Part shown: in pieces, positions 40,569-64,000 of the stretch
Position numbering within the stretch: the stretch's first letter is position 1
How the letters are laid out: every line of letters starts with the position of its first letter
Source of the DNA: Turritopsis dohrnii
Taxonomy: Eukaryota > Cnidaria > Hydrozoa > Anthoathecata > Oceaniidae
Length of the DNA: 64,000 nt
Direction: 5' to 3'
Assembly (NCBI GenBank): GCA_027922465.2
Contig: BQMF02000474.1
Span: 248,001-312,000, forward strand
Made by a program: the position numbers and the translations under genes
Notes under the pieces: model-generated
Database searches by the model: none
The model's input: only the letters and a program-made list of their open reading frames with translations
Told to the model about the DNA's origin: nothing

Positions 40569-40613
40569 TCCCCATGTGTGACAAACTTGTTGAAAAACTG
40601 CTGGAAGAAGTTT

Positions 40614-42371: not shown

Positions 42372-42534
42372 AACGTTCCTTGGTTTTACTCTTTACTGAC
42401 AGAGCCTTTGATATCATCTCCTCATAGTTTTTCCCAAAAAGGTCAGTCTGTTTTGTTTCTGAATTAGTATAATATTCAGCCATATCCTTTAAGAACGTAT
42501 CAACTTTTTTCTTTTCTGATAGAAACGCCATCAT
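42270..42534 (-). CDS. DIRS gag C-terminal, RG-rich part
   Basis: Start of a frame open to 40090. Its first 90 or so residues contain TRRRPFPKGPLLHPRGRGRG and a run of RGNYRGNFRGNHRGNRG, an RNA-binding gag tail. Downstream the same frame overlaps RT-RNase H for nearly 590 codons and shows no DIRS gag or RT features, so I end the supported gene near the RT start. Confidence 0.6.
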
Positions 42535-42926: not shown

Positions 42927-43053
42927 CAGTGGTTGCAAGTGACTTGTAATCAACCCTTGCTTGACTCCTTACTTCCATCAAGTAGAGTTGAGCTCAATCA
43001 ATGAAAGTAAGGAGTCAAGCAAGGGTTGATTACAAGTCACTTGCAACCACTGG
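42927..43053. repeat. 49-bp inverted repeat at the broken BEL 5' junction
   Basis: CCAGTGGTTGCAAGTGACTT... (42927-42975) is the exact complement of 43005-43053, with a 29-bp spacer. The right arm encodes the start of the BEL frame (RSQARVDYKSLATTG). The left arm is an inverted copy of BEL leader sequence, found where the 5' LTR should be. Confidence 0.85.
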
Positions 43054-44368: not shown

Positions 44369-47300
44369 CCATCAAACAACAATTCAAATCCGCACACTAG
44401 AGTTCCGCAATCAACCATCTGCTACATATGCGGAGCAAATGACCACATTCAGACAAACGGACCGAGAGGTACTAAACTCACACAGTACTTTGCTTGCAAA
44501 ATGTTCGTTGAGATGACGCCTCATCAAAGATACCAACATCTCAAACAAAAGAATCTTTGCACTCAATGTTTGTTTCCGGGTGCAAAACAAGATCAAGGAA
44601 AACATCAAGACGGTCTATGCCAGTACGATTTTGTTTGCCAGCATCCCAAACACAGCTCAAGCCTAACAAAGAAGCATGTTTTAGTATGTGACGAACACAA
44701 GCATGACCAGATCAACCGCGACATACTGGAACACTACAAGGCTCGATGCATCATCAAACAACCAGTTCAGCCGTATTCAAAGGAAATCAAAATCTTCCAT
44801 GCGTTGGTTGATAGTCGTCAGTCAGCCAACCATGTCAATCAGTCCTCAGAGCATCAAGCTGTTTTCATGCTACAGACTATCAACATCAACAGTCAGTCGT
44901 TCAACCTGTTCTACGATTCAGGTTGCAGCGACTTCATCTGCAGAAGCCAGGCAATTCAAAAGCTTGGTGATCGTTCATTCCAGAAGTTCTCTGGCACCAT
45001 CAAGATGGGTGGTGTTGGAGGAATTGTCAGTCGATCAGAGTACGGAATCTACAGCGTGTCGCTCCCGCTCAGAAATGGAAATGATGCAACCATGACTGGT
45101 GCCTGTCTGGAGAAGATCACAGACACTTTTCCGCTCTATCCACTCAATGGAAAAGTCTATCAAGATCTTCAGGAAGCATACGTCAGTCAACAAAATGATC
45201 CACGTTATCTGCCATCCGTCCCTGCATTTGTCGGTGGGGACACAGACTTCATGATTGGGATAAAGTACTACAGATATTTTCCACGAGTCATCTTCCAATT
45301 ACCATCTGGCCTTACGATTTATGAATCGCAGTTCTTCAATACAGATGGATCATGTGGTGTCATTGGCGGACCGCATGAAGTTTTTAATCACATCAGCAAT
45401 CAAGTATCACCGATCAACTTCATCACAAGTCAACATAAGCTGTTTCAACTTGGTTACCATGTCAACCCTGATCTTCGTCTTCTCGGTTTTGGTGATCAAC
45501 AAACTGATTTTCATGTGTCACAAGATTCAATCATTGAAGAGTCACCTGATCAGCAACTCAGCACTTTTTTTGAAGGAGAACGTGCTGGAAGTGAAATTCT
45601 CCACAGATGCATCAATTGCCGATCGTGCTCATCTTGCAAAAATCAATCAAACGAGATCATAAGCATCCAAGAAGAGATAGAACAAGATCTCATCAACCAA
45701 TCAGTTACCGTTGACATCAAAAACAACATGACAATTGCAACACTTCCGCTCTTAAATGATCCTGTCAACTGGCTCGCTCCAAACCGCAATGTCGCTCTAA
45801 AAGTTTATGCCCAGCAAGTGCGTAAACTTGAAAGGAATCCAAAAGATAAGGAAGACATCATCAACTCCGAAAAGAAGTTACAATCCTTGGGCTACGTCGA
45901 ATTCACAAAGAATCTTCCGAAAGATATTCAAGCATCACTGAGGGACGATCCTATCAAGAACTTCATTCCTTGGAGAGCAGTATGGAAGGAGAATTCAGTA
46001 TCTACTCCTTGCAGGATTGTCTTCGACGCGTCCATGCCCACAGCCTCTGGTCACTCACTCAACGATGTGTTGGCAAAGGGACGTAACAACATGAACAAGT
46101 TGGTTGAAATTTTCATTCGATGGAGGAGTCATCAAGTTTGTTTTCATACTGATGTACAGAAAATGTATAATACTGTTCAGCTGGACCCATCCCATTGGTG
46201 TCTTCAGAGATATCTATGGAGTGATTCATTGGATCCGAATGCACCACCTGAGGAGAAAATCATAATGACGTTGATTTACGGAGTAAAATCTAGCGGGAAT
46301 CAGGCGGAACGTGGTCTGCGTCAAACTGCCTATCTCTTAAAAGACGAGTACCCTGACACATACATAATTATCACCAAAGATATCTACGTTGATGATTGCA
46401 TGTCAGGCTCAAACTCAAAGGAAGCCGCCATGTTAATTGCAGATCAGCTTGAAGTCGTTGTCAACCAAGGTGGTTTCACACTGAAGGGTTTCACTTTCTC
46501 AGGTCAACCTCCACCACCATCCCTATCTGCAGATGGTGAGACCATTTCTGTTGCTGGCCTCAAATGGTATCCTGAAGAGGACAAACTTTCACTTGACGTA
46601 CAAGAACTCAACTTCACCAAGAAGCACCGTGGTCGAAAGTCAAAAGAAGACAAATCAATACCAATCAACCTAACACGCCGTCAATGCGTTTCGAAGGTAG
46701 CCGAAATCTTCGATATTGCTGGACTCATCACGCCTATCGTAGCCACAATGAAGATGGACCTTCACCAGCTTGTGACAAGGAAACTCAATTGGGACGATGT
46801 TCTCCCCGATGAACTCAAGAAGTTATGGACGTCACATTTCGAGATGATGCAAGATATCAATTCAATCAAATTCAACCGTGCTGTCGTCCCATCAAATGCT
46901 GAAAGTCTCAAAATCGGAACACTTGACTTTGCTGATGCCAGCAGAAATCTTGCATGTGCTTCGATATATGCTCGCTTCAAGTTACGAAATTCTGGCTACT
47001 CGTGCCAACTGGTCTTTGCCAGATCGCGTCTTGTTCCTGATGAACTCAGTCAACCGAGAGCTGAGTTATTTGCTGCTTTACTCAACACACATACTGGAGA
47101 AGTTGTGAAGCAAGCATTTGGCTCCAACCACTCATATTCAATGAAATTCACTGATTCACAGATAGCCCTCCATTGGATATGCAAGACCAATCTTCCTCTC
47201 AAGCAATGGGTTCGGAATCGAGTATTGGAAATACACCGGTTTACTTCTATCTCGCAATGGTTCTACATTAAGTCCCAAGACATGATTGCGGATATTGGAA

Positions 47301-49120
47301 CTCGCAGATGTTCATCCCTCCAAGATGTTGATCAAAATTCGATTTGGGTTAATGGGTATGATTGGATGTCTGGGAGTAAAGATCAATTTCCAACACTCAC
47401 AACTGAAGAGATATCACTTAATGCGCAGGATGTTCAGCAGCTCAATAAAGAGCTGAAGGAAGAAGTTATCGATGACTCCAAGTGTCACATCTCCTCAACA
47501 GTTGTTCCAGAAGGAGTCTCCGAAAGGTATAAATACTCTGAATACATTATTGATCCAAATTTCAAAGGTTTTGACAGTGTCGTTAGGATATTGTCTCATG
47601 TCATCAATTTCATCCGACATTGTCAAGAAGCAATCAGAATCAAACATGGTTACAAAATTCCTGAATCTTGTGTCAACGCTCTCACTGAAGCAGAGATGTA
47701 TTTTTTCCGAAAGGCGACAAATGAAGTCAAAGCGTTTGTCAAACCCTCAAAGATTGAACATATATCTCAAGAACAAAATGGCATCCTTTACTACACCGGG
47801 CGAATTCTTCCTACTGACGACATTACAATTCTTGGGAGAACAACTCAAGCCATGAAGGATCTCGTATCAACCTCATTTTATGTTCCAATCATCGACAAAT
47901 TATCACCGATTGCGTATAGTATCGTGATGGATGTACATTGGAACCACCCAACCGCCAGACATTGTGGAATAGAGACAACTTGGCGTTTCGTTCTGCAAAA
48001 AGCCTTCATCGTTGAAGGAAGGTCTCTTGTCAAGTCTGTTCGAAAGAAGTGTCAACGGTGCAGATACATAATGAAGAAGACGCTTGCGGTTTCCATGGGA
48101 CCGCTCTCAGCAGACAACTTGGTCATCGCTCCTTCATTTTATGTCACACAAGCAGATTTGGCCGGTCCTTTCTTATCATTCTCTCAGCACCACAAAAGAA
48201 CAACGATCAAGGTTTGGCTTGCTATCTTTTGCTGTTCAACAACAACCGGGATCAAGATCAAAGTCATGGACGACTATGGTACCTCTGCCTTCTTACAAGC
48301 CTTCACAAGATTTTGCTGCGAAGTTGGCTATCCTTTCAAACTTGTGATCGATGAAGGAAGTCAAATTGTCAAGGGATGCTCATCAATCCAAGTCGACTTC
48401 ACCGATCTGAAGAACAAGTTGCATCAAAGCGCTAAAGTTGGTCTAAAGATTTGCCCTGTCGGTGGGCATAATGTCAATGGTCGTGTGGAAAGGAAGATCA
48501 GAGAGATTCGTCGATCTCTTGAAACGTCAATCCAACACAAGAAGTTATCCCTCCTTCAATGGGAAACAATTTCATCAATTGTTTCCAACTCAATCAACAA
48601 CCTTCCGATCGCTGTTCGTGGTATCAAAGGTGACTTTGAGATGACTGATCTTCTTACACCGAACCGCCTAATGTTAGGAAGAAACAACGAAAGATCACCT
48701 ACTGGAAACTTTCAAGTCACCAATGATTTTGACAAGATGCTTCATTCAAACAAAGAAATCTTCAATGCGTGGTTTGAATGCTGGTTAACATCGCATGTAC
48801 CGAATCTCATGCATCAATCGAAATGGCATGATTCAGACGAAAACCTCGAGCCTGGTGACATAGTCTTGTTTCTGAAACAAGATTCGAGTTTGTGTTCCAC
48901 CTATTAATATGGAATGGTCAAGAGCGTACTGCCCGGTCGAGATGCGAAAGTTCGAAAAGTCGTGGTCACTTATCGAAATGCAAGTGAGGGTACAAATCGT
49001 GAAACAACGCGTTCAGCAAGGTCACTGGTGATGATCAGTCATGTGGATGAAATTGACATTTCTAAAGAACTCTATGATAGAAAGTTTCAATCTCTTTGTG
49101 GGGGAGTGTCACAGCATTAG
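44369..49120 (+). pseudogene. BEL/Pao pol: protease, RT, RNase H, integrase
   Basis: Same frame as gag, open to a TAA at 48905-48907 and then again to 49120. In order: Cys/His knuckles (CYICG...CTQCLFPG); protease with LFYDSGCSDFI (about 44910); RT with RIVFDAS, VQKMYNTVQL and IYVDDCMSG (about 46385); RNase H region with LDFADASR and MKFTDSQIALHW. The integrase has an H2C2 finger (HPTARHCGIETTWR...CQRCR) and a DDE core: TQADLAGPF, VIDEGSQ, NGRVERKIREIR. A C-terminal DUF5641 segment (GDIVLFL) is cut by the TAA and resumes with YGMVKSVLPGRDAKVR. Except for the two stops the coding capacity looks complete. Confidence 0.9.
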
Positions 49121-51931: not shown

Positions 51932-52750
51932 CTAATCACATTGTAAAACGACCTGTATTTCCTTAAAAATATTATAAATAACTTTACTTAATGCTGGATG
52001 AAATGTAGTGACAAAAATTTCCCTCCCTCCCACTTTGTCCCGTTCTACCCTGCCCTGCATACTCTCATTTCGATCTAGAGAGACAGTTCTATCAATCTGC
52101 GAATCCACAAGCCCTTTGTTGTATCCTCTTGAGTGGAGCCACTGTTTCAGTTCAGTTATCCTATCTAAAAAAACTTTATCATCCGAACAAATGCGACGTT
52201 TTCTTAAAGCTTGACTAAAAGGAATTCCCTTCTTAGTATGAAAAGGATGACAACTAGAAAAATGAAGATACTGGTGAGTGTCAGTTTCTTTGACAAAAAG
52301 GTCCGTAGAAATACTTTTACCTTCTCTTGTAACTAAAACATCTAAAAATTCAATTGACTTCCGAGAATACTTATATGTAAATTTGATAGTTGGATGTATG
52401 CTATTAAGGTACGTAATAAACTCAATCAATGCTTCCTCACCGTGTTCCCACACTAAAAATATATCATCAATATATCTCCACCAAACCCAGGGTTTCAAAT
52501 GATAGTTGGAGAGCGCCCTTTCCTCGAATTCTCCCATGAATAGGATAGCATATGATGGAGCAAATTTGGTACCAATAGCAGTGCCCTGTTTTTGCCTAAA
52601 TGTTTGAGAGTTGTGTTCAAAAAAATTATTTTTTAGAACAATTTCTGCTAACTTAAGAAGTGATTCTGTGCTGACTGATTTGTCGTCTCTTCCGTTCAAT
52701 GTATCTCTCATAGCCTCCAGAACATCTATATGAGGGATACTAGGGTACAA
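51932..52750 (-). CDS. Penelope-like reverse transcriptase, left copy
   Basis: 272 residues from YPSIPHIDVLEAM; the frame is open further upstream to the truncation (CTIDVVGLYPS). Penelope RT motifs: GTAIGTKFAPSYA, WWRYIDDIFLVWEHG (catalytic DD) and IEFLDVLV. It ends at a TAG after LQCD. The endonuclease domain continues in the same frame after that stop. Confidence 0.9.
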   Translation of the reverse strand: MYPSIPHIDVLEAMRDTLNGRDDKSVSTESLLKLAEIVLKNNFFEHNSQTFRQKQGTAIGTKFAPSYAILFMGEFEERALSNYHLKPWVWWRYIDDIFLVWEHGEEALIEFITYLNSIHPTIKFTYKYSRKSIEFLDVLVTREGKSISTDLFVKETDTHQYLHFSSCHPFHTKKGIPFSQALRKRRICSDDKVFLDRITELKQWLHSRGYNKGLVDSQIDRTVSLDRNESMQGRVERDKVGGREIFVTTFHPALSKVIYNIFKEIQVVLQCD

Positions 52751-52786
52751 TCCTACGACATCAATAGTACAAAGAAGACGACAAAG

Positions 52787-53541
52787 ACGACAAATCAGTC
52801 AGCACAGAATCACTTATTAAGTTAGCAGAAATTGTTCTAAAAAATAATTTTTTTGAACACAACTCTCAAACATTTAGGCAAAAACAGGGCACTGCTATTG
52901 GTACCAAATTTGCTCCATCATATGCTATCCTATTCATGGGAGAATTCGAGGAAAGGGCGCTCTCCAACTATCATTTGAAACCCTGGGTTTGGTGGAGATA
53001 TATTGATGATATATTTTTAGTGTGGGAACACGGTGAGGAAGCATTGATTGAGTTTATTACGTACCTTAATAGCATACATCCAGCTATCAAATTTACATAT
53101 AAGTATTCTCGGAAGTCAATTGAATTTTTAGATGTTTTAGTTACAAGAGAAGGTAAAAGTATTTCTACGGACCTTTTTGTCAAAGAAACTGACACTCACC
53201 AGTATCTTCATTTTTCTAGTTGTCATCCTTTTCATACTAAGAAGGGAATTCCTTTTAGTCAAGCTTTAAGAAAACGTCGCATTTGTTCGGATGATAAAGT
53301 TTTTTTAGATAGGATAACTGAACTGAAACAGTGGCTCCACTCAAGAGGATACAACAAAGGGCTTGTGGATTCGCAGATTGATAGAACTGTCTCTCTAGAT
53401 CGAAATGAGAGTATGCAGGGCAGGGTAGAACGGGACAAAGTGGGAGGGAGGGAAATTTTTATCACTACATTTCATCCAGCATTAAGTAAAGTTATTTATA
53501 ATATTTTTAAGGAAATACAGGTCGTTTTACAATGTGATTAG
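52787..53541 (+). CDS. Penelope-like reverse transcriptase, right copy, 5'-truncated
   Basis: Open from the truncation. It contains GTAIGTKFAPSYAILFMGEF, WWRYIDDIFLVWEHG and FLDVLVTREGK, and ends at the same TAG after LQCD as the left copy. It lacks the N-terminal RT motifs and is not expected to be active. Confidence 0.88.
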
Positions 53542-53598
53542 GAACACAAAAAACTATTCTCTTCTATTCCTCTAGTATCTTTTCGTCGGGCTAAAACT

Positions 53599-54120
53599 TT
53601 GCAGGATATTTTAGTTAGGGCACAGTTACCTGCAGTTGATAAAAAAGGGGGATCCTGCAAATGTTGCAAAAAATTGAATTGTCAGGTTTGTAAGTTACTG
53701 ATAGAAAATGATAGCGTAACTGATAGTGAAACTATTAAAACGTATTTTATTCGTCGGGGAAATTTTAACTGCAATTCAAAATATGTGATTTATAGGCTAG
53801 TGTGTAAAACATGTAATAAACAATATATTGGTAGTACCAAAACACCATTCAGACTAAGGGTTAATAACTATAGGAGTCACTTTAAATCGTATTGTGAACG
53901 TAAGAATGCAGGTACACTTAATCAGGGTAGGGTTGTTCCACAGGCGGGTTTATTTTCACATTTTACACAAAACACACATAATGGGTTTCAAGATTTTAGT
54001 TTTCAAATTATTGACGCATCAAAAACCGAGAACCAACTTCGAGAAAGGGAGTCTTTTTGGCAGTACAAATTAAAAACATTTTTACCACAGGGACTTAATG
54101 AACGCAATGTACCTACATAA
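53599..54120 (+). CDS. Penelope GIY-YIG endonuclease, right copy
   Basis: 173 residues with the intact C terminus (FQIIDASKTENQLRERESFW) that the left copy has lost. Cys linker CKCCKKLNCQVCKLL; GIY-YIG core VIYRLVCKTCNKQYIGST. The frame runs in from the TAG at 53539-53541, so it would need readthrough or a fusion to be made with the RT. Confidence 0.9.
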   Translation: MQDILVRAQLPAVDKKGGSCKCCKKLNCQVCKLLIENDSVTDSETIKTYFIRRGNFNCNSKYVIYRLVCKTCNKQYIGSTKTPFRLRVNNYRSHFKSYCERKNAGTLNQGRVVPQAGLFSHFTQNTHNGFQDFSFQIIDASKTENQLRERESFWQYKLKTFLPQGLNERNVPT

Positions 54121-54644
54121 TTTTGTGTAATTTTATTATAGACTAGCACTTCCTCCGTTTTTTTACGCACTTTTTGCGTGTATATCGCATGTTAGGTGTC
54201 TGCACTTCAGCTTTTTAGCGTTGTGTCAGAGGTGTAAGGAGTTAGTCTATTCCAAACTTATTTGTTGTTTTGTTGTTTTTATTGTATTTTTTAGCTTCTC
54301 GTCTTGTCTTATTTTTTGGTATATTTTACTTATTGTTAGTGATGCTCTGCACGTTCTGCTTTCTAAGTTTTAATCACTTCGTGTCCTGTGTGTATTCTGT
54401 TTTTGCTTGCAAACATGTTCGTTTCAGTGGCTGATTCTAATTCACCCCCGAGTGTTTTTACTTTTACTTTTTTATTATCAAAGATTTAGTTTCTTTTATG
54501 AAAATATGATTTTTAATTGTTAATAGGGCGTATGTATTTTAACAGATTTACTATATAAGCATGTTGTAAGACATTTTTTTAAATAACCTGACGAAGAGAA
54601 ATCGAAACGTTGTTATAAAAATGTAGTTTTTTTACGAACATTTA

Positions 54645-55230
54645 TATTATATATGTATATATTTATTGAACTTCTTATATATAACAGCCACTTTCTAGAC
54701 AAGGCCTTTAGAAAATCAGGTAACTCTATTTCTACAAAGACAAAAATAATGACCATTATCCATTGATCATTCTCGTATTTGTTTAGGTGCTCTACTTACA
54801 AAATTTTACGAAAAGCTTTCTGCAATATACTTTTATAGAATTTTATCATTTTCTATAATTTGATTTACAAGAGTCATTTATTACTTTCAAAGTCTTTTGA
54901 ATAAAATTGTTACAAAATGTTTTAAAAAATATCTAACAAAAATGTATTCCTTTACAAAGTTATATCTATGATAAGCCCATTTCTTCCTGTTTTCCCATAT
55001 GAGAGATAGGAAAGTGCCGATGCTAGCCCAAAATCATATGATTTCGGGAATTTCCCTACTATAGCTAATATTTGTTTTCCTAACGCGATACGAGTTACGA
55101 AACGTGTTATTATAACCACAAATTACTCATAAATGTAAACAATTAAATATCTCATAAAAATGTAGTAAAAAGCAGTTTGTAGTAGTTTCATTTTTATAAC
55201 ATAAATGAGCTAACAATACATATAACATAC
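54645..55230. other. AT-rich gap
   Basis: No gene, repeat or element end recognised. Confidence 0.4.
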
Positions 55231-55231
55231 A

Positions 55232-55306
55232 GATCAGCGTAGTCTAGTGGATAAGAACGCTAACTTGTAACAGCAAGGTCGTGTGTTCGAACCCCACGCA
55301 GTTCGT
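55232..55306 (+). tRNA. tRNA-Thr(UGU)-like sequence, probably a SINE head or pseudo-tRNA
   Basis: A-box-like TAGTCTAGTGGATAAGAACGC and B-box GTGTTCGAACCCCAC lie at tRNA spacing. Between them CTTGTAA forms an anticodon loop with UGU, and AAGGTCGTG matches the variable region of Thr tRNAs. The anticodon stem and the acceptor stem pair poorly, so I judge it to be a tRNA-derived SINE head or a decayed tRNA. The pol III boxes could still be active. Confidence 0.5.
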
Positions 55307-55575
55307 CTGAGAGGAAGTATATATACTTCGGCGGTTGTAGATCTCTCATGTTCTGGTTGTAAAACTTGCATGAGTGCGCACTTCCCCGCAGTTGTGTTGA
55401 ATATATCGCGGAATGGTTAGCATTGTGTCTGGGTGATTTATCACTGTCAGGTTTCTCTGGTCCATAGAGACATTCAGGTTACCGTCATTTCGATCGAAAT
55501 TCAACAAACGCCAGGGCTTAGAAGTGTTAGCATGTATCCACAATGCCGGCTATAATTGCAAACTACATGCGCTGA

Positions 55576-56709
55576 TCAGCGAAATACATACCATATACTA
55601 AACATCGTGGTAATCGCTAAAACCAAAGCTATTTTCTCTTCTTCATGAGATGGGAGTGAATCTGTTTGACTCACTACTCTTTTGTGAACTTCTTTTTGAG
55701 AGCTAGTCACTTTGGGTGAAATATGATGCTCTTGCATAACATTAATCATTTTGTTTCTTCCGAGGCTCAAGTTGTCATTAGATATGAGAATTTTATTATT
55801 ATAACCAGACACTCCCGACTTGATGTTTAGATTCATGTCACTAGGTAACATGTAAATACCTTGTCCAACAGAATAATCAATTTTACTTGAAGCGTAATTT
55901 AAAGTATCTTGATAACGTTTAATGTCATCTTGAATATCAACTCTGCGGTTAACAATGTCTTCAAAGTTGTTCATAAAAACTCTTTGAGCTGTCAAAGCGC
56001 TTGAATTATTACCTAAAATAGAAGAACGAGCTGAGGCTTGCGAACTAAGAACAAGATAAGCATATGCTCTAACACTCTCTGAAATTTTTACAAGACCTGT
56101 TTTTGTAAAGCCTTTAGATTTTTCTATAATCCATCGTGTCCTGGAGTCGTCTGTGAAATAACTCACACCTGGCGTTGGATAGTCTCTACGTCTTTTTTGA
56201 TACGAGCTGTAAAAATATTGCCCTTTGTATTTTTTAGGATCAGAATCGACACCATATTCAGTACAGATTTTTAAGAACTCTTCTTTGTTATAAGGATTAT
56301 CGTATTGGTTGAAACTATCTTCAAAAGGTAGAGGTGTCTGCAGACGCTTAATGATTCGTCTAATATGATAATAGACATGAAAACGATATACTGCTCTAAT
56401 CATAGGAGTAGAGCGACCTTCTTTCAGATGTTCAGAACTGACCCCACAAGCACTTGAAGCACACCAAGTGACAAAATTGAGTTGGGTTTGCCATAATTCA
56501 AATGGTTGTTCCTGCCAAATTTTCATACGTTGATCATTTTCATCCATTTCGTAATTAGTAAATATATTTGGAAAAGTTGCGGGGAAAGAACCGTTCTCAG
56601 AGACAATAATTGTTTGTTTATATAAATCTTTAGCATTCAATATCTGAAGGTATTGCCCTCCATTTGGCTTATAAGCCGCGTTGGGATTATATTTAAAAAT
56701 ATTCTCCAT
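55576..56709 (-). CDS. Virus-element protein with C-terminal membrane anchor, unknown function
   Basis: 377 residues with no recognised domain. Starts MENIFKYNPNAAYKPNGGQY; the middle is rich in aromatic and charged residues (RAVYRFHVYYHIRRIIKRL); the last 18 residues are hydrophobic (ALVLAITTMFSIWYVF), suggesting a tail anchor. It diverges from the penton gene across 39 bp. A palindrome CGCTGATCAGCG overlaps the stop region. The size and the position next to capsid genes fit a minor virion protein, but this is inference. Confidence 0.75.
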   Translation of the reverse strand: MENIFKYNPNAAYKPNGGQYLQILNAKDLYKQTIIVSENGSFPATFPNIFTNYEMDENDQRMKIWQEQPFELWQTQLNFVTWCASSACGVSSEHLKEGRSTPMIRAVYRFHVYYHIRRIIKRLQTPLPFEDSFNQYDNPYNKEEFLKICTEYGVDSDPKKYKGQYFYSSYQKRRRDYPTPGVSYFTDDSRTRWIIEKSKGFTKTGLVKISESVRAYAYLVLSSQASARSSILGNNSSALTAQRVFMNNFEDIVNRRVDIQDDIKRYQDTLNYASSKIDYSVGQGIYMLPSDMNLNIKSGVSGYNNKILISNDNLSLGRNKMINVMQEHHISPKVTSSQKEVHKRVVSQTDSLPSHEEEKIALVLAITTMFSIWYVFR

Positions 56710-56748
56710 TATTATTTAATAATATTATCTTATATTTAATACAAGAAA
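56710..56748. promoter_or_regulatory. 39-bp divergent promoter region
   Basis: Almost pure A/T (TATTATTTAATAATATTATC, TTATATTTAATAC) between the divergent starts at 56709 and 56749. Whatever drives both genes must lie here or inside the coding regions. Confidence 0.5.
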
Positions 56749-57309
56749 ATGTATATCACATTAAATCTCGTAAGGGGTGAGAAGACCATATATCTACCTT
56801 ACTCCATTCGAAATATAGACGGTTCGAAAGAGATCGCATTATTTGAGATATTTGCAGACACCGTCACCTATCAAATCACAACACCGATAACATTGAAAAC
56901 GTCTGACGATGGGAAAGCTGAAAAGTTGGTACCAAAACGAACATTCACGAGTAGGGAATTGAATTCCTTTTTAGCAGGTGCCTTTTTAGAAGGCGATATA
57001 GAAATTAAATCATTAGCCAAATACCCTCAAATAATCAAAACAAATACGCTAGCTAAAATAACCAAAATGAATTTACATCTCTCTGAACTCGACAACACTC
57101 AAAATCTTGAGAATGGAAAGCTAAGTGATATTTTACTAACCGTCCCCATCGCCAAATATAGTGACTTTACACATACTGAGCCTAAAAACCTTCAGTACAA
57201 AAAATTAAAAAATGGTGTATTTCAGTCTCTCACGTTGAGACTGACAGATCAGCATGGGGGTATACTAAGTGAAGATCTGGGTACAACCGTTGTTTTGCAC
57301 ATTCGCTAA
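56749..57309 (+). CDS. Penton-like minor capsid protein (single jelly-roll type)
   Basis: 186 residues, beta-rich. Central LHLSELDNTQNLENGKLSD and C-terminal LKNGVFQSLTLRLTDQHGG...TTVVLHIR fit the penton-type partners of polinton-like capsid proteins as I recall them. It lies 43 bp upstream of the major capsid gene on the same strand. Function rests on position and pattern, not on a search. Confidence 0.65.
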   Translation: MYITLNLVRGEKTIYLPYSIRNIDGSKEIALFEIFADTVTYQITTPITLKTSDDGKAEKLVPKRTFTSRELNSFLAGAFLEGDIEIKSLAKYPQIIKTNTLAKITKMNLHLSELDNTQNLENGKLSDILLTVPIAKYSDFTHTEPKNLQYKKLKNGVFQSLTLRLTDQHGGILSEDLGTTVVLHIR

Positions 57310-57352
57310 AACGAGATAAAAAGTAAAAATTAATTATATATCATAATTTATA

Positions 57353-58669
57353 ATGAAGTATGGAAAGAGGTTAAATCCAGAACATTCACTTAGAACTGCC
57401 CACGGTGTAAAAGGTTCTCGTAAAAAAGTAATTGTCACACACAATCCGAGTGAGATCGATCAAAATCAGCTATTATTGGTTAGGTTTCCAAATTTAGGAA
57501 GTGATGATGTCATTATCCCAGGAACAACGAATCTAAGTTTTGATATTGAACTCGAGTCGAAAGCTGACTCAAAAAGAACATTGGTCAGTAACATTGGAAG
57601 AGCTATCGTTAAAAAGTTGGCTGTCAAGTTCGAAGGTAACGAGATATTGAGTATCGATGACTTTGATCTTTTTGGGTGTTACAGAGATTTATGGTTAACC
57701 AAGTTTGAAAAGAGAAACGCGATAAGACAGGGTATCATCATCGATGATGGGTGTACAGAGAATTGTATGAAATTAAGGATTGGTGCTTCAGATAAAGACA
57801 CCTCTGATGCAGAAGACAAGGCCATTGCTGACACCTATAAAAACAAGTTTGTCATTCCACTCGACTTTGAGATGCTAGATAGTACTATTCCATATTATCA
57901 AGCAGGTTTAGGTAATAGGCTTTGCTACGAGATCACATTTAACGACTATAACCGAGTTATTTATTCTGACCCTCCAGATACTGCCGCAGGTCAAAAACGT
58001 AACCCAGATGGTAAATACAAAATATCTAACATCTCACTTGAATATGAGCTTGTGACACAACCCACGTTGGCTAGACAAATCGCTTCTGAATATCAAAACA
58101 TGGCTTTGCTCTATGATAGGATTTTGCGGCACAGACAAACTAGAGTAAACAAGTCAGACACAACGTGGAATTGGTCATTCAACACACCTGCCAAATCTTT
58201 AAAGGGTATTTTAGTTCTATTTGAAGAAGAAAAATCCTACAAACGAGAAACCTGTAAATTCTACAATCCAAAGATCAAAAAGGTATCAGTCATCGTCGAG
58301 GGTAAGCCTAACCAACGTTTTGCTCAAGGGATGCAGCCGTTTGAACAATACAATGAGATTTGCAAGTATTTTGCTGAAGGAAAACCAAAAGATAATAGCG
58401 TCGGCGAAAACCGAAAGCGCTTGGGATTACATGATGTAAAAGTCTCTGATTACTTGACAAACAAGTATGCTCTATGGTTAGATTTCAGAACAATTGATGA
58501 GAATGCCTTGCATGGGACCGGTCGAAGGATTGAAAATGCGAGTGAAGGTATCACTTTACAGATTGAAAAGACCGCTGAAACTGCAGGAAACTTAAACGCA
58601 TATATATATCTAATCATGGATGCTCTATTAAACATACAAAACGGTCAATTTATGTCTGCAGTATATTAG
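57353..58669 (+). CDS. Major capsid protein, double jelly-roll type
   Basis: 438 residues, beta-rich. Features: an early LVRFPNLGSDDVIIPGTTNLSF strand pair, IGRAIVKKLAVKFEGNEIL, FVIPLDFEMLD, and a late LKGILVLFEEE and NAYIYLIMDALL. The length is in the range of polinton-like major capsid proteins, and the gene sits directly before the packaging ATPase with a 4-bp gap. Two jelly rolls are inferred from length and strand pattern; structure prediction would settle it. Confidence 0.75.
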   Translation: MKYGKRLNPEHSLRTAHGVKGSRKKVIVTHNPSEIDQNQLLLVRFPNLGSDDVIIPGTTNLSFDIELESKADSKRTLVSNIGRAIVKKLAVKFEGNEILSIDDFDLFGCYRDLWLTKFEKRNAIRQGIIIDDGCTENCMKLRIGASDKDTSDAEDKAIADTYKNKFVIPLDFEMLDSTIPYYQAGLGNRLCYEITFNDYNRVIYSDPPDTAAGQKRNPDGKYKISNISLEYELVTQPTLARQIASEYQNMALLYDRILRHRQTRVNKSDTTWNWSFNTPAKSLKGILVLFEEEKSYKRETCKFYNPKIKKVSVIVEGKPNQRFAQGMQPFEQYNEICKYFAEGKPKDNSVGENRKRLGLHDVKVSDYLTNKYALWLDFRTIDENALHGTGRRIENASEGITLQIEKTAETAGNLNAYIYLIMDALLNIQNGQFMSAVY

Positions 58670-58673
58670 TAAA

Positions 58674-59279
58674 ATGAACACACTTTACATGAAAGAACCT
58701 CACACGGCATTATTCGTCGGACCAACATCGTGCGGCAAAACGGATCGTGTCATAAAATTATTAGAAAATGAATACTATGATCACTTTGATTTCATCGTGA
58801 TTATATGTCCCACCTTGAGGTGGAATCAGACTTACAGAGATCGGAAGTGGTTCTGGAATGACGGCTATGTGATTTTAATTGAGCCGGAAGGATCTTTGTA
58901 TGAATATATTAAGAAAATGGACTTTTTCTGTGTCGGATACAAAACCTTATTCCTCATTGACGACATCATAGCTGATGAAAAATTGGACAAAAAGAGAAAC
59001 CCTTTGCTCGAGTTGGCAATTAGCGGCAGACATCGAAATCATTCGCTATGGTTACTTACACAATCATACACTGCTATACCTAAAAATTTACGACGGCAAG
59101 CTAAAATGTTATATGTGTGGTATCCAAAAGATAGAAACGATCTAGCCACCATTCAAGAAGAGAACGATGTCATTGATTCGCAAGAAGAATTGAAAAATGT
59201 CAAGGAAAAACTGAAAGGAGGGAAACACACATGCCTAGTCATGAGAATGGAACACCCAAGAACGCACGTGATTTGTTAA
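58674..59279 (+). CDS. A32/FtsK-HerA-type genome packaging ATPase
   Basis: 201 residues. Walker A GPTSCGKT at 16-23, Walker B LFLIDD at 92-97, and SGRHRNHSLWLLTQSY at about 120-135 as the sensor-like motif. This combination and size are typical of the packaging ATPases of polintons, virophages and poxvirus A32. It would pump the genome into the preformed capsid. The start codon lies 4 bp after the capsid stop, which suggests one late transcript. Confidence 0.88.
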   Translation: MNTLYMKEPHTALFVGPTSCGKTDRVIKLLENEYYDHFDFIVIICPTLRWNQTYRDRKWFWNDGYVILIEPEGSLYEYIKKMDFFCVGYKTLFLIDDIIADEKLDKKRNPLLELAISGRHRNHSLWLLTQSYTAIPKNLRRQAKMLYVWYPKDRNDLATIQEENDVIDSQEELKNVKEKLKGGKHTCLVMRMEHPRTHVIC

Positions 59280-59292
59280 ACAGGTTGATATA

Positions 59293-59317
59293 TTTGTTAC
59301 ATGACTCTTGTAACAAA
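59293..59317. terminator. Hairpin between convergent genes
   Basis: TTTGTTACA and TGTAACAAA form 9-bp arms around a 7-base loop between the ATPase stop (59279) and the stop of the minus-strand gene (59342). A similar GTTACA hairpin lies at the other convergent junction. Confidence 0.5.
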
Positions 59318-59319
59318 AA

Positions 59320-59380
59320 CTATAAGACTGTTATAAGACTACTATAAGACTGTTATAAGACTACTGTAAGAGAATAATTT
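59320..59380. repeat. TATAAGACT repeats
   Basis: TATAAGACT occurs four times (ACTATAAGACTGTTATAAGA, twice), overlapping the 3' end of the PPP1R15-like gene. It is related to the TATAAGA array on that gene's other side. Confidence 0.6.
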
Positions 59381-59587
59381 ACGTCTCAATACAGTATCTA
59401 GAATTTTACCAATATGTTTAATCCTCGATTCAAAGCGTACTCTGTCAACAGCAGCCTCTATCCAGTTACTTCTACGAGATTCACAAGCATAGATATAATG
59501 GACCATTACTTTATCATTAAAAGTAACCCTTTTTGTATCTTGATGGGAAAATATAATATCATCATCTGAGGATTCATCATCAGACAT
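59342..59587 (-). CDS. PPP1R15/GADD34-like PP1-docking protein of the virus element
   Basis: 81 residues. An acidic N terminus (DDESSDDD) leads to KRVTF at 19-23, an RVxF PP1-docking motif, then DKVMVHYIYA. A spaced W42 and DRVRFESRI (48-56) follow. RVxF, a short hydrophobic run, a Trp and an Arg-Phe-x-x-Arg-Ile block is the layout of the PPP1R15 core, where the first part holds PP1 and the second contacts eIF2alpha. HSV-1 ICP34.5 and ASFV DP71L are established viral members that reverse the translation shut-off. Assignment rests on motif order in a short protein. Other PP1-binding proteins share RVxF, so the second block carries the argument. Confidence 0.7.
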   Translation of the reverse strand: MSDDESSDDDIIFSHQDTKRVTFNDKVMVHYIYACESRRSNWIEAAVDRVRFESRIKHIGKILDTVLRRKLFSYSSLITVL

Positions 59588-59649
59588 AATTGTTTAAGTA
59601 AACAATGTTTATTTATTTAACAATGTTAGAATATATTATTAAACATCAT

Positions 59650-59800
59650 CCTCTTATAATTATTTTGTCTTACAAACTTATAAGAAGATAGCAAACTCTT
59701 ATACAGCAAATTTCAACAAAATTATAAGAAGATAGCAAACTCTTATACAGCAAATTTCAACAAACTTATAAGAGAGTATAAGAAAATTATAACAAACACA
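59650..59800. promoter_or_regulatory. TATAAGA array in the divergent intergenic region
   Basis: Two copies of a 44-bp unit (TTATAAGAAGATAGCAAACT...CAAATTTCAACAAA) plus partial ones give at least seven TATAAGA/TCTTATA motifs in both orientations. The array lies between the divergent starts at 59587 and 59806. It is a candidate promoter/enhancer or replication-associated repeat. Confidence 0.5.
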
Positions 59801-59805
59801 ACAAA

Positions 59806-60450
59806 ATGATAGAATATATCAACTTTATATTATTAAGCATACTGCTGATCTCGCTATTTTACTTTTATTTTGTGTTAAAAAAATACCTCTCTCTAATAAA
59901 AATGGCGGAAACAGCGATCAATAATTTAATCAACCAGAGTTATGATGTTCCGGGTAAATTTCCACCTTCAGATGGTAAAAGACAAAAATTACTCGAGTGT
60001 GTCTTAACCGGTAATAGCAAGCTATACTTAGGGAAAATGTACACGGAAGAGCAGATTAACAAACTCAAAGATGAAAAGGTAGAAGAACTTTTTAGTATCT
60101 ATGAAGCTAAACTATCAGGTCAATGGGGGAAATCCTTGGGGAAATCACTCATACGCATTTATTCGAGGGGGGCTTGTACAATGTTAGGAATAGACAATCA
60201 AGAAGCGCTGAGCAATGACTTGGAAGCTGACCCCTCCTTAAACTCTGCTCTTCAAAGATTTGCATGTGGCTTATATTATAAATACGGTCCATTATTAGCA
60301 CCACTCAGTGTTGGACTTATTACCGGGAAGCATTATGTCAATGAAAGATATTTAAATAAATCCGATGATAATATAAATACAGTTGATAATAAAAATGTCA
60401 GAAGAACAGACTCCCATTCAAGTGACAACGAAGAACCCAAAAAAGGTTGA
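59806..60450 (+). CDS. Virus-element protein, possible N-terminal membrane segment
   Basis: 214 residues, not recognised. Residues 6-25 are strongly hydrophobic (NFILLSILLISLFYFYFVL). A second ATG at 59902 (MAETAINN) would give a soluble 182-residue form, so the start is uncertain. The middle is helical (TEEQINKLKDEKVEELFSI), the C terminus hydrophilic. Its end overlaps the next gene by 68 bp. Confidence 0.7.
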   Translation: MIEYINFILLSILLISLFYFYFVLKKYLSLIKMAETAINNLINQSYDVPGKFPPSDGKRQKLLECVLTGNSKLYLGKMYTEEQINKLKDEKVEELFSIYEAKLSGQWGKSLGKSLIRIYSRGACTMLGIDNQEALSNDLEADPSLNSALQRFACGLYYKYGPLLAPLSVGLITGKHYVNERYLNKSDDNINTVDNKNVRRTDSHSSDNEEPKKG

Positions 60451-60739
60451 AGCGGGTAAGAAGTTGGCGGAATACAACCGTAAAAAACGAGAACAATTAA
60501 AACAAGTGTCACCTCAAAAAGAAATGGAGAAGCCTCAGGCTTCTCTCACCAAACCAAATGAACAACCTATGAACTACACCTATGGTGTAGGTGGAATAAT
60601 AGCTCTCGGTTTAGTTGGTGGATTTGCTTATTTTGTGTATAAAAAGAAAGAGCAAATATTACCCCGTGGGTCACCATCCACCCCCCTTCCACAAAAATCT
60701 AAAATACCAGTGAAAATCAATAAACATGAAATGGAATAA
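60383..60739 (+). CDS. Small single-span membrane protein
   Basis: 118 residues; the start is more likely the ATG at 60395 (MSEEQTPI). A basic, helical first half (KKVEAGKKLAEYNRKKREQ), one transmembrane segment (VGGIIALGLVGGFAYFVY) and a proline-rich tail. No family recognised. It overlaps the preceding gene. Confidence 0.65.
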   Translation: MIIKMSEEQTPIQVTTKNPKKVEAGKKLAEYNRKKREQLKQVSPQKEMEKPQASLTKPNEQPMNYTYGVGGIIALGLVGGFAYFVYKKKEQILPRGSPSTPLPQKSKIPVKINKHEME

Positions 60740-60766
60740 AAAGAAAAAAATGTATATATAACAAAC

Positions 60767-61036
60767 ATGGACAAGAAAAGTATCATCAACGATTTATATC
60801 ATGCATCAGTCGTCTGCGTTTTCGCTATCGGCTACTCTATGCTAGGAAAAAAGGTATTAAAAATGACACCTCCCTCTATTCAAAAGTTCGACTTGGAAGA
60901 TATAGGAAAACTAGTTGCCCTTATTGCCGCTAGTGAAGTGACAAAGGACTACTTAATCAAACAAAAGATTTTACCTGAAAATATCAATACATTAAAATAT
61001 AAAATTATCTTTCAAATCATAAAACTAAAAAACTAA
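60767..61036 (+). CDS. Small virus-element protein with a hydrophobic N terminus
   Basis: 89 residues; HASVVCVFAIGYSMLGKKVL may insert in a membrane. The last 17 codons lie in the left arm of a long inverted repeat (60988-61100), so its C terminus was probably shaped by a rearrangement. Confidence 0.6.
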   Translation: MDKKSIINDLYHASVVCVFAIGYSMLGKKVLKMTPPSIQKFDLEDIGKLVALIAASEVTKDYLIKQKILPENINTLKYKIIFQIIKLKN

Positions 61037-61100
61037 AATGAGTACATTTAGTTTTAGTTTTAGTTTTATGATTTGAAAGATAATTTTATATTTTAATGTA
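60988..61100. repeat. Long palindrome spanning a gene end
   Basis: TACATTAAAATATAAAATTA... at 60988-61038 pairs with 61046-61100, with arms of about 51-55 bp, an expanded (AGTTTT)n in the right arm and a spacer of a few bases. It spans the stop codon at 61034-61036. Confidence 0.9.
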
Positions 61101-61183
61101 CCTTGCTCTGGTCTTTTACCTTACCATTGAGCACTCTGCAAACATTGGTTCAACATTGAAAATATCAATATCAATATCTAAAT

Positions 61184-61606
61184 ATGGCTTCTATCGCAAT
61201 GATGTTGGGTGGAGCTTTGGCTAACGCTTTGGCTTTCACAGGATCAAGCTATCTGTTTTCAAGTTTATCCAAAGACAGAATCGATAAGGAAAGAAAACGT
61301 CATGATTTGGCCATAGAAAAATTACAAAAAGCACAGATTGAATGGCAGCAAAAACGACAGGAAAGGATCGATTTCATCAATAAGCAGCTCATGCTCGAAA
61401 AGAAGGCTGATTCAAAATTCGTAGAACTAAATGATGCAATGAGAGAGTACAATAGTGTATTTAGTAATCATCTTGAACCGCTACCACGAGAGCCTGTATT
61501 GAGCGACTTTTATACACCGAGTCATGATCAACATGAAAGGGAATTGGCTTTTATAGCTATGAGTATGCTCGGAATTGGTGGAATTGTGTGGTATTTTGAA
61601 AGATAA
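61184..61606 (+). CDS. Virus-element protein with coiled coil and two hydrophobic ends
   Basis: 140 residues. A glycine/alanine-rich hydrophobic N terminus (MLGGALANALAFTGSSYLF), then a long charged helix (KERKRHDLAIEKLQKAQIEW) continuing through DFINKQL, a short proline-rich part (EPLPREPVLSDFY) and a hydrophobic C terminus (AMSMLGIGGIVWYF). No family name known to me. A virion or membrane scaffold role is possible. Confidence 0.7.
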   Translation: MASIAMMLGGALANALAFTGSSYLFSSLSKDRIDKERKRHDLAIEKLQKAQIEWQQKRQERIDFINKQLMLEKKADSKFVELNDAMREYNSVFSNHLEPLPREPVLSDFYTPSHDQHERELAFIAMSMLGIGGIVWYFER

Positions 61607-61634
61607 AATGTATATTCAATTTGAGTACAAAAAT

Positions 61635-61659
61635 TATGTTACACGTATCGTGTAACATA
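61635..61659. terminator. Perfect hairpin between convergent genes
   Basis: TATGTTACACG and CGTGTAACATA form 11-bp perfect arms around TAT. It lies exactly between the stops at 61606 (plus) and 61677 (minus), where it would act for both strands. Confidence 0.6.
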
Positions 61660-61676
61660 TATACACACTCAGATGG

Positions 61677-62966
61677 TTACCGTCTAGTCACGAGGTACGT
61701 ATAGATCATCCATCCAACCCCTACAATCAGAGCCCATAAATTTTGACTCAACCAACCTACAACTTCTTTTGCTCTAGTGAGTATCCACGATACGATAGAT
61801 CCAATTATTCCTGGTAAAGCTTCTGCCGCTTTAGATGCTAATCTACCTAGAAGTGATGCTAACGCTTTTAGTTTATTTTTTATCCATTCCTTTGCATCGT
61901 CCTTTTTATCACCACCTTTGTCAGGATTTTGTGAAGAGTTTCCAGCTGCTGATGGTAACAAAGCTTCCACAAGGACACCGATAGCCATACCAAACGCTGT
62001 CAGAATGCTAACGATTGTTATACCTTGTTCACGGAATAGTGTTCGTATCCTTTCACCTAATGAGGTATCTTTGTCGAGGACTTTAGCAATGGTTTCTTTG
62101 ATGCTCGTAACTTGACTGTTTAATTTACCTTTGAGAATATCAATGTTCTCTTTCCTAGCTTTCAACTCTTCACGTAATCCATCCATTCTCTCTTCAACCT
62201 CTTTTCGTTGTTCGTCCGTGTATGTTGCATCGTTTTCCATCTCCTCCAACTTGTTTTTCTCTCGATCGATATGCTGTTCTATTCGAACCTTTTTCGCAAC
62301 CTCTTCCTGAAGTCCTCCTCGTATGTTTCTCAGCGCCTTATCCAATCCTAACAACTCTCGCACAGGATATTCAAATAGATCGCCGGTCTGAGTCATTTCA
62401 TGATCGACAGATTGTTGTCTAAGCGTTGAAATTAAATCTTCCGTACTATTTGCAATGTTCCCCGTAATTTCCTCAAGCTCTACATCACTCGATTTTGTGA
62501 TTTTAGATGATGAAGGGAGTTCTTCTTGTATTTTGTTTAACATAACTGCTTGTCGTGCTGTTATTTTACCAATAGGTATATCAAACCCTAATTTACGTAA
62601 CCCCTCCTTACCCAATATATCAGCTATAGTACCGGTAGCCCTTAGTATTCCATCTCTCTTCGTCAATGGATCGCTACTGTCTTTGTAGTATAATTTACCT
62701 TCTCTGATTTCAAACAGATCGGTATGTTTGGAATTAGGTTTTTCCTGATTGAGGCTTTCAGATAATCTATCATACAGCCCTTCAACTAGTTCTTTCAAAA
62801 CTCTAGTATTCAGACTGTGACCACCAAATGATGTTTCTCGGTCACCTGATGTATGTATCTGTGCACCCGTACGATCACCGGTCGGTATGAGAGGAAACAT
62901 CTCATCGGTTGTTTCATCCGTCGTCATCCCATGTTCTCCAAAGGGGTCAATATCAATGTCTGCCAT
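61677..62966 (-). CDS. Large coiled-coil membrane protein of the virus element
   Basis: 429 residues. An acidic N terminus (MADIDIDPFGEHGMTTDETT) is followed by a globular part (KLGFDIPIGKITARQAVML) and a long coiled coil with many E/K heptads (VAKKVRIEQHIDREKNKLEE). Then come a hydrophobic helix (ITIVSILTAFGMAIGVLVEA) and a C-terminal pair of hydrophobic segments ending LIVGVGWMIYTYLVTRR. No domain recognised. The architecture resembles a membrane-anchored fibre or fusion-like scaffold, but nothing in the sequence proves it. Confidence 0.72.
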   Translation of the reverse strand: MADIDIDPFGEHGMTTDETTDEMFPLIPTGDRTGAQIHTSGDRETSFGGHSLNTRVLKELVEGLYDRLSESLNQEKPNSKHTDLFEIREGKLYYKDSSDPLTKRDGILRATGTIADILGKEGLRKLGFDIPIGKITARQAVMLNKIQEELPSSSKITKSSDVELEEITGNIANSTEDLISTLRQQSVDHEMTQTGDLFEYPVRELLGLDKALRNIRGGLQEEVAKKVRIEQHIDREKNKLEEMENDATYTDEQRKEVEERMDGLREELKARKENIDILKGKLNSQVTSIKETIAKVLDKDTSLGERIRTLFREQGITIVSILTAFGMAIGVLVEALLPSAAGNSSQNPDKGGDKKDDAKEWIKNKLKALASLLGRLASKAAEALPGIIGSIVSWILTRAKEVVGWLSQNLWALIVGVGWMIYTYLVTRR

Positions 62967-63025
62967 TTTATTTATTTATTTAGAGGATAATTTATTATTA
63001 ATTATGTTATAACATCCCTTTTAAT

Positions 63026-63754
63026 ATGAGTGTTAAAATTTATCCAAAACTACCCACTGCTCCTGAGGATTTGAATAAGCAGGAAAAGTTTAACGCAAGC
63101 GTAATAAATTCAGAATTTGAAGAGTTGATAAAACTTAAGAACAAGTTTAGCATCAAGCTCGAGAGATACAACAAGGCGATAGAACGATCGATGCTACTAA
63201 ATGCTAGCTCAAGCGCTATAACTATTGGCTCCGGCATCGGTTCAATTGCAACAGGGGCTACTATTATCGGAATACCTATTTCTGCAGGATTAGGTGGTGT
63301 AGCCTTAGCCGGCTCTATATGTACCGGACTTACCACAGCTGTCATCAAAAGATATCAAAAGAAAGTAGAAAAAGTGATAAAATTATATGATATTGTTACA
63401 TCCTCAATTTCTGTCTTCGAAACTAACATAAGTCAGGCGCTGACTGATGGGAGGATCAATTACAAAGAATTCCAGGTTTTGCAGGGAACATATTACAAAG
63501 CTTTAGAAGGACTCAGTTCTACAGATAGAAAGATGGAGACTGAAACCCAAAATCAATTACAAAAAAGTTTGATGATAGAACTCCAAAACCTGAAAAAATC
63601 CATAACCGAAAATGGTTACTATGATGTGTGGTTATGTGTTCCTCAATTTGAAAAAGTGATTAATGAAAATGAAACTTATATAAAGAGATATGATCACAAG
63701 TATATATACAGACAAAAAAGAGACAATGGAATTTCCAACAGTTGCAATATTTGA
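63026..63754 (+). CDS. Glycine-rich membrane-hairpin protein of the virus element
   Basis: 242 residues. Helical flanks (FEELIKLKNKFSIKLERYNK; VEKVIKLYDIVTSSISVFET) surround a glycine/isoleucine-rich hydrophobic hairpin at about 60-105 (GSGIGSIATGATIIGIPISA). This pattern is seen in membrane-inserting proteins, including apolipoprotein-L-like and pore-forming folds, but the resemblance is compositional only. Confidence 0.7.
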   Translation: MSVKIYPKLPTAPEDLNKQEKFNASVINSEFEELIKLKNKFSIKLERYNKAIERSMLLNASSSAITIGSGIGSIATGATIIGIPISAGLGGVALAGSICTGLTTAVIKRYQKKVEKVIKLYDIVTSSISVFETNISQALTDGRINYKEFQVLQGTYYKALEGLSSTDRKMETETQNQLQKSLMIELQNLKKSITENGYYDVWLCVPQFEKVINENETYIKRYDHKYIYRQKRDNGISNSCNI

Positions 63755-64000
63755 ACAAAACATGGAACAAACGATCATAAAGTGGAGAGAGCTACCTGAA
63801 AATGTGATTTATCATGTCAAATCTGTAGGTGAAATAGACACACCTGCATCTGAATTTGGTTCTGGAAAAGCTATGTATGCAAAGGTCCAAGACAGAACAG
63901 GAAATTTATATAAGACATGGTTGCCTGCAAGACTTTGCGTTGAGTTGAAGGATTGTCTCTGGAGTGACAAAAAAGCGTTTATCAGATCGAACGGGCTCAG
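63726..64000 (+). CDS. Unrecognised virus-element ORF, runs off the window
   Basis: The ATG at 63726 overlaps the end of the preceding gene by 29 bp. 91 codons are open to the window edge (starts MEFPTVAIFEQ; contains ELPENVIYHVKSV and KTWLPARLCVEL). It has a small beta-rich look. No family recognised. Confidence 0.6.
   Translation, partial: MEFPTVAIFEQNMEQTIIKWRELPENVIYHVKSVGEIDTPASEFGSGKAMYAKVQDRTGNLYKTWLPARLCVELKDCLWSDKKAFIRSNGL

Follow-up and report, generated by a model that had tools for sequence, protein, structure and literature searches.

We propose that an 81-residue open reading frame (R15) in the hydrozoan Turritopsis dohrnii encodes a minimal PPP1R15-type subunit of protein phosphatase 1 (PP1), which would keep translation going for the capsid-encoding element that carries it and was likely captured from a host as an accessory cassette. 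We give this reading a probability of nearly four in five, with activity on PP1, actin and eIF2-alpha predicted from the resemblance to known family members. R15 lies at 59342-59587 on the minus strand of the window, that is, the whole stretch of 64,000 nucleotides analysed here (contig BQMF02000474.1, positions 248,001 to 312,000). The assignment is based on a PF10488 match, on matches to PDB sequences and on copies picked by way of the neighbouring capsid gene.

In the ORF list of the window the frame is complete from ATG to stop, with 81 codons. Its translation displays KRVTF at residues 19-23, a hydrophobic run at 27-34, R38, W42 and RFESRI at 51-56, so the order and spacing of the PPP1R15 core noticed in a first-pass annotation were found as described. 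A scan of 24736 Pfam models listed PF10488 (PP1c_bdg) as the sole match of R15, even at E 10, with an E-value of 2.2e-6 and 28.0 bits against a gathering score of 26.1. Residues 13-70 cover profile positions 164-225 of 230, and the match reaches past RVxF to the Arg-pocket Arg, the Trp, the Phe, the Ile and the C-terminal leucines; a resemblance confined to RVxF, the first of two refuting outcomes named in the first-pass annotation, was accordingly rejected. Four further R15 copies scored 31.4-34.4 bits; a copy with a long linker, L127, scored 15.3 bits, under the cut-off. Among PDB sequences, phmmer placed PPP1R15B (26.4 bits, E 5.2e-5) and DP71L of African swine fever virus (ASFV; 24.5 bits, E 2.1e-4) at the top. 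As a yardstick, the 45-residue core of human PPP1R15B scored 25.5 bits against DP71L and 24.6 bits against PPP1R15A, and R15 therefore resembles PPP1R15B to much the same degree as accepted family members do; the R15-PPP1R15B alignment is gap-free over 45 residues with 40% identity. The mammalian-type N-terminal membrane and eIF2-gamma-binding region is absent from R15, which consists of the core only. This region does not define the family, since viral and invertebrate members are described as sharing just the core with mammals (PMC10998612). Homology thus supports R15 as a probable minimal member of the PPP1R15 family. A single-sequence search of 5.8 billion proteins with R15 gave one candidate and zero matches, that is, no close relatives from other species by this route. 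PHROGs gave no match to R15, and IMG/VR gave zero confirmed loci with R15, the capsid, a capsid alignment, the ATPase, an alignment of R15 with PPP1R15B or the environmental protein P0131 as query.

The short form of ASFV DP71L is, like R15, a minimal stand-alone PPP1R15 core of similar size with RVxF, Trp, RF..RI and a C-terminal L...L, whereas R15 has an acidic N terminus and a linker that differs by one residue. ASFV infects pigs and ticks and is a large cytoplasmic DNA virus, while the carrier of R15 is a small capsid-encoding element with very many integrated copies. Human PPP1R15A and PPP1R15B, in comparison, exceed 600 residues and have membrane and eIF2-recruiting regions in addition to the core. 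That HSV-1 ICP34.5 and ASFV DP71L are viral homologues of PPP1R15, as the first-pass annotation stated, agrees with the family descriptions, and DP71L is the second-best PDB sequence match of R15. ICP34.5, canarypox 231 of the avipox group and gp036 of the insect virus coGV are viral PPP1R15 cores like R15, likened here by description only. The HSV-1 and canarypox homologues are linked to eIF2-alpha dephosphorylation, and in what these articles say of the HSV-1, avipox and coGV homologues none is described as part of a polinton-like element (PMC4394352, PMC8301327, PMC10807198).

Eight residues of PPP1R15B, namely V641 and F643 (RVxF), Y650 and I652 (phi-phi), R658 (Arg pocket), W662, F672 and I676, are reported as contacts or as sites of mutations that blunt the actin response (PMC4394352). 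Their counterparts in R15 are V21, F23, H30, I32, R38, W42, F52 and I56, with seven of the eight kept; in the phi-phi pair I32 is retained and Y650 is replaced by H30. All of the following features lie on the minus strand. The putative PP1-docking motif RVTF (residues 20-23, 59519-59530) aligns with KVTF of PPP1R15B, V21 and F23 matching V641 and F643 in the gap-free alignment. R38 (59474-59476) corresponds to R658 and W42 (59462-59464) to the invariant Trp, W662 of PPP1R15B and W582 of PPP1R15A; both are invariant in 105 copies, and W42 marks the helix start in the AF2 model. F52-I56 (FESRI, 59420-59434) corresponds to F672-I676, the actin/eIF2-alpha segment, with F52 and I56 again invariant in the 105 copies. 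L63-L67 (LDTVL, 59387-59401) aligns with LSAVL of DP71L, on whose leucines that protein is reported to depend (PMC5346070); L63 and L67 match these leucines, and 76 of the 78 distinct R15 copies have Pro at residue 65. The AF2 model (single chain, 14-row alignment; mean pLDDT 69.7, pTM 0.32) predicts an extended low-confidence N-terminal half followed by one helix at 42-80, with block-mean pLDDT of 77-91 across residues 41-70 and peak confidence at 51-60. Residues 582-619 of PPP1R15A are described as two helices with a sharp turn, wrapping actin and touching eIF2-alpha (PMC8500838). From the Trp onward PPP1R15A is thus helical and R15 is predicted to be so, with two helices and a turn in the former and one helix in the latter.

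The PPP1R15 core of about 70 residues is reported to be necessary and sufficient (PMC10998612), joining PP1 and G-actin and dephosphorylating eIF2-alpha (PMC4394352, PMC8500838, PMC10998612), and viral members are described as acting against translation arrest (PMC5346070, PMC10807198). In R15, the extended N-terminal half with RVTF, I32 and R38 would provide the docking site for host PP1, and G-actin would hold the helical part from W42 onward, so that phospho-eIF2-alpha is presented to PP1; its dephosphorylation during infection by the element, or during its reactivation, would allow translation to continue. We infer that R15 is expressed and that its target is the eIF2-alpha kinase response, with PKR or PERK as the presumed kinase countered. 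An opposing view places substrate recruitment by human PPP1R15B upstream of the core (PMC7615683), and this dispute extends to R15. R15 might also bind PP1 through RVTF and target the phosphatase at a viral protein or a host kinase instead of eIF2-alpha. RVxF is used by many unrelated PP1 regulators, the stretches before and after it differ in length among the small forms described below, and both the PP1-GADD34 holoenzyme and HSV-1 gamma34.5 have been reported to act on TAK1 or IKK as well (PMC10807198). We nevertheless regard such a redirected adaptor as unlikely, as the similarity extends beyond RVxF over the Arg-pocket residue, the Trp and the Phe and Ile of the segment associated with actin and eIF2-alpha.

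R15 is embedded in a series of element genes. On its ATPase side these are a 377-aa protein (55576-56709, minus strand; second copy in L021) and a 186-aa protein (56749-57309, plus strand), both with no family found, the position of the latter suggesting a minor capsid protein; a putative major capsid protein of 438 aa (57353-58669, plus strand); and an A32-type packaging ATPase of 201 aa (58674-59279, plus strand; PF04665 32 bits, over 22.8), which shows purifying selection among copies. R15 is convergent with the ATPase gene, 62 bp separating the two stops, and divergent from P214, a 214-aa protein with an N-terminal hydrophobic segment (59806-60450, plus strand) that served as the neighbour in the empty-site test. 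It lies, as initially noted, between the capsid/ATPase module and a membrane-protein block. Further along, the ORF list and Pfam scan gave a 114-aa protein with a hydrophobic segment (60395-60739), a 140-aa protein (61184-61606) and a 242-aa protein (63026-63754), all on the plus strand, and a coiled-coil-like protein of 429 aa on the minus strand (61677-62966) with weak matches to coiled-coil families only. A perfect 43-nt inverted repeat with a 27-nt loop occupies 60988-61100 at the end of an 89-aa ORF of the element, and the alignment of the window to a second element copy breaks precisely there. This second copy starts about 9.7 kb further along the same contig (window 55002-64000 against L021:829-9666). 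The gene content, including a protein-kinase exon, a mitochondrial/50S-type L24 and a Pao element, suggests an animal-like genome.

The element had been called a polinton-like virus, of which the A32-type ATPase, over its cut-off, is the part that stood; capsid and integrase stayed below threshold and PolB was not seen in the stretch read. The capsid has 3456 homologues, and many of the 120 listed are on very long contigs. Capsid_N was matched in 16 of 18 capsid relatives (best E 0.0012), with the window's own copy at 13.1 bits, below the cut-off of 24. Its AF2 model was poor (pLDDT 46.6) and was left out of the fold search, a capsid profile against PDB sequences gave one match at chance level, and a phage collection searched with the capsid gave zero matches. 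An integrase fragment, a 143-aa frame in L021, reached 17.5 bits for rve against a cut-off of 32.6, and the part of the element that was read (window 53542-64000 and L021; unit of about 9.7 kb) showed no ORF for a protein-primed PolB. We therefore use "polinton-like" loosely. Adintoviruses and Polintons (Mavericks) resemble the element in the packaging ATPase, the weak capsid match and the integrase fragment, and the element departs from them in the PolB ORF, not seen in the unit of about 9.7 kb that was read. In the genome assembly (436 Mb, 891 contigs) the capsid gave 1084 first-look candidates, and 96 of the 97 scored were stop-free. Tandem element copies are also indicated by three R15 places on C746 (25894, 33396 and 40898), spaced exactly 7502 bp. 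Nine of 20 R15 loci (L001-L020) are no more than 15 kb away from a contig end, which would follow from assembly breaks at long element arrays or from a location of copies near chromosome ends.

A genome search with R15 yielded 448 first-look candidates, the best 150 of which were scored and found to be 93-100% identical and stop-free; with PF10488, the best 150 of 413 first-look candidates were scored, all over the cut-off and stop-free. Both lists comprise best-scoring copies and are biased towards intact ones. An unbiased set was provided by 97 capsid places found with a capsid from another source (P0120, 71-72% identical), blind to R15. R15 is present downstream of the capsid in 82 of these 97 copies; absence from all related elements, the second refuting outcome named in the first-pass annotation, was thus not observed. 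At 55 places a listed R15 lies downstream, its lower coordinate and the capsid gene being 654-1197 bp apart, irrespective of strand, while the remaining 42 were judged from slices of 650-1001 bp, 27 with R15 and 15 without. Among the 27, a frameshift seems present in L121 and in L129, the linker of L127 is longer and L124 runs off the slice. P214 follows directly in 13 of the 15 R15-less slices (L095 and L126 have no P214 within the slice), and in eight of these 13 both flanks of the empty site are within the slice. When the ATPase-P214 spacer of the window was compared by blastn with the 15 R15-less slices, the match stopped at about 59317-59368 and resumed at about 59672, leaving a cassette of R15 and its upstream region (59369-59671, left edge varying from about 59318 to 59369) absent from these copies. 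At its left edge are 11/22-bp tandem repeats of the TATAAGAC type (59319-59371), which overlap the last codons of R15, and at its right edge 44-bp tandem repeats (59672-59773), which are expanded in some R15-less copies.

Since R15 occurs in 82 of 97 copies and the empty sites have P214 directly next, R15 belongs to the element as one of its genes and forms an accessory cassette at a site flanked by repeats; its identity as a stray host exon was rejected on the same observations. The uninterrupted viral gene order stated in the first-pass annotation recurs across the relatives as well, with capsid, ATPase, R15 (minus) and P214 kept in order and orientation in the 50 loci for which neighbouring genes were read, except for L015 (deletion) and L013 (no P214 in reach). 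On a P214 tree of 100 rows, 13 of them R15-minus and the plus rows mostly R15-picked, the R15 label needs five changes, two of which are forced by the starred branches. With midpoint rooting, the deepest split of the tree has R15-plus rows on either side, a pattern that fits gain or loss alike. R15 would be gained or lost as a cassette between the two repeat tracts.

Purifying selection across the whole of R15 was considered as an argument for function and failed. ATPase variants in at least two of 50 distinct copies comprised 61 synonymous and 33 nonsynonymous changes (ratio 0.13), R15 variants 6 and 18 (58 distinct; 0.80) and those in R15 residues 17-67 3 and 12 (40 distinct; 1.11). Over three thresholds the ratios were 0.13-0.19, 0.80-0.86 and 0.96-1.25, respectively, after a first-look value of 0.96 for R15 (39 copies). 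As the copies are young, with few synonymous changes in all, this ratio has little power. Individual residues were compared in 105 stop-free near-full R15 copies (78 distinct), with 10 loci set aside for gaps, stops or short matches. The eight residues named above vary at 0/8 positions against 23/37 other core positions (14-58; Fisher p 0.0015), and residues identical to human PPP1R15B at 3/18 against 20/27 (p 1.9e-4). Counting only variants in at least two copies, the figures are 0/8 against 11/37 (p 0.084) and 1/18 against 10/27 (p 0.016). These p-values are generous because the copies are related and mostly R15-picked. The capsid-picked subset (23 distinct R15 stretches) showed the same trend and no significance, with 1/8 against 16/37 (p 0.11) for the named residues and 4/18 against 13/27 (p 0.07) for the PPP1R15B-identical ones. 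Changes in R15 hence avoid functional residues, significantly in the full set and not significantly in the unbiased subset.

These data also bear on whether R15 is a passenger, a fragment of a host PPP1R15 gene that is functionless now. The ratio of 0.8-1.25, the 15 of 97 capsid-picked copies in which R15 was not found and the two frameshifted-looking copies would all fit a passenger. We consider it very unlikely, as none of the 27 sliced capsid-picked copies has an in-frame stop in the matched part, the 150 best-scoring copies of the biased list are all stop-free, R15 occurs on both sides of the deepest P214 split and, in the full set, changes keep away from the functional residues, while the youth of the copies deprives the ratio of much of its weight.

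With regard to the origin of R15 as a minimal PPP1R15-type subunit, a profile search with element copies and the human core gave 14 small proteins: ten with PF10488, which look like vertebrate exons, one human PDB chain, P0131, P0133 and P0134. P0131, with 65 aa on a contig of 1031 bases, led to two findings in the genome. The first is a candidate host PPP1R15 (L134; C11:727442-727759, minus strand), a single place with no near copy in the genome search. It lies within an open frame of 345 aa and reveals TKRV.F, a Trp and DR..F..RI...GK.LEPVL, with 40% identity to R15 over 55 residues and a C-terminal GKxLxxVL that matches R15; in contrast to R15 it has a longer linker, WSYAYK, and its PF10488 score of 17.1 bits is under the cut-off of 26.1. 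A chance resemblance of R15 to the family, built on an RVxF-like string of a kind that is common and in a protein that is short, has a practically negligible probability and was rejected on the E-value of 2.2e-6 across 24736 Pfam models and on PDB sequence matches topped by PPP1R15 and its viral relative, as well as conflicting with the 55-residue alignment to the C11 gene and its matching C terminus.

The second finding is another small PPP1R15-like form at 12 places, 46-49% identical to P0131 and read in L135, L136 and L137. The places are C773:16091-16270(-), C819:71876(+), C76:3424(+), C811:34416(+), C125:293466(-), C108:900842(+), C163:747062(+), C503:275441(-), C741:79078(-), C91:282725(-), C552:81797(+) and C145:491200(-). 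Both copies tested, L135 and L136, are over the PF10488 cut-off, and the C91 copy carries a stop. About 300 bases around one copy held no clear element gene; a 16-residue ATPase-like stretch nearby (E 5.6e-4) was taken as chance. The second form may represent either a family of host genes or another capture by a virus. The longer linker is common to this form (IAWDHAYRK), L127 (IAWDYAYRK), the C11 candidate (TWSYAYK) and P0131 (VWRYAYRK), and L127 is 63-64% identical to the second form, 54% to P0131, 44% to the C11 candidate and 32-34% to the vertebrate-like exons. In a tree of the small PPP1R15 proteins (14 rows, 64 columns), three vertebrate-like exons are set apart, with full support, from the element, host-like and environmental forms; little is resolved inside, and long branches meet. 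The single-place host-like gene, the multi-copy second form and the long-linker copy suggest that the element most likely acquired R15 from an animal PPP1R15 gene, a direction read from sequence comparison, and the simplest reading is that the linker was shortened afterwards in most element copies. The acidic N-terminal block is doubled in L127:35-337(-) and tripled in L071:1458-1787(+), with ESSDDDIIFS repeated, and a similar DIDITFSEDDNDIAFSE stands upstream of the second small form in L138, on the same strand. P0133 (96 aa) and P0134 (111 aa), from other assemblies, have an acidic start, KKVTFSD and RFKRRIEQIH.ILKPVL without the Trp, and may be PP1 adaptors in which the PPP1R15 core has been partly lost.

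We know of no earlier PPP1R15 mimic from this class of elements. Viral PPP1R15 mimics have been described from large DNA viruses (PMC4394352, PMC10807198). Among the matches listed for open-licence papers, no report paired PPP1R15/GADD34 or eIF2 with polinton, Maverick, adintovirus or virophage, and a term search of the main text of one article on adintoviruses (PMC11071296) gave zero occurrences of "GADD34", "ICP34.5" and "phosphatase". If our reading of R15 is true, translation arrest through eIF2-alpha would be a defence worth countering for small polinton-like elements as well, and perhaps in an animal beyond the interferon/PKR setting. PKR is not known outside vertebrates. R15-plus and R15-minus forms side by side, with a possible source gene in the host, offer a natural comparison by which one could test what eIF2-alpha phosphorylation does against such elements. 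A wider scenario, speculative and in our opinion unlikely, is that the integrated stress response is a battleground for an element family of hundreds of copies or more, for which host PPP1R15 was captured, perhaps more than once given the second small form, and swapped as a repeat-bounded cassette, and whose genomic copies may dampen eIF2-alpha phosphorylation in the cells of the host even without infection.

Elsewhere in the window, two direct repeats of 1.64 kb with 99.6% identity (13665-15306 and 16293-17933) reveal a recent duplication. A tyrosine-recombinase retroelement with Phage_integrase at 39234-42534 (minus strand), which we take to be DIRS-type, precedes a Pao-type retroelement with Peptidase_A17 at 43001-48907 (plus strand), and the pieces at 51932-54117 are presumably Penelope-like.
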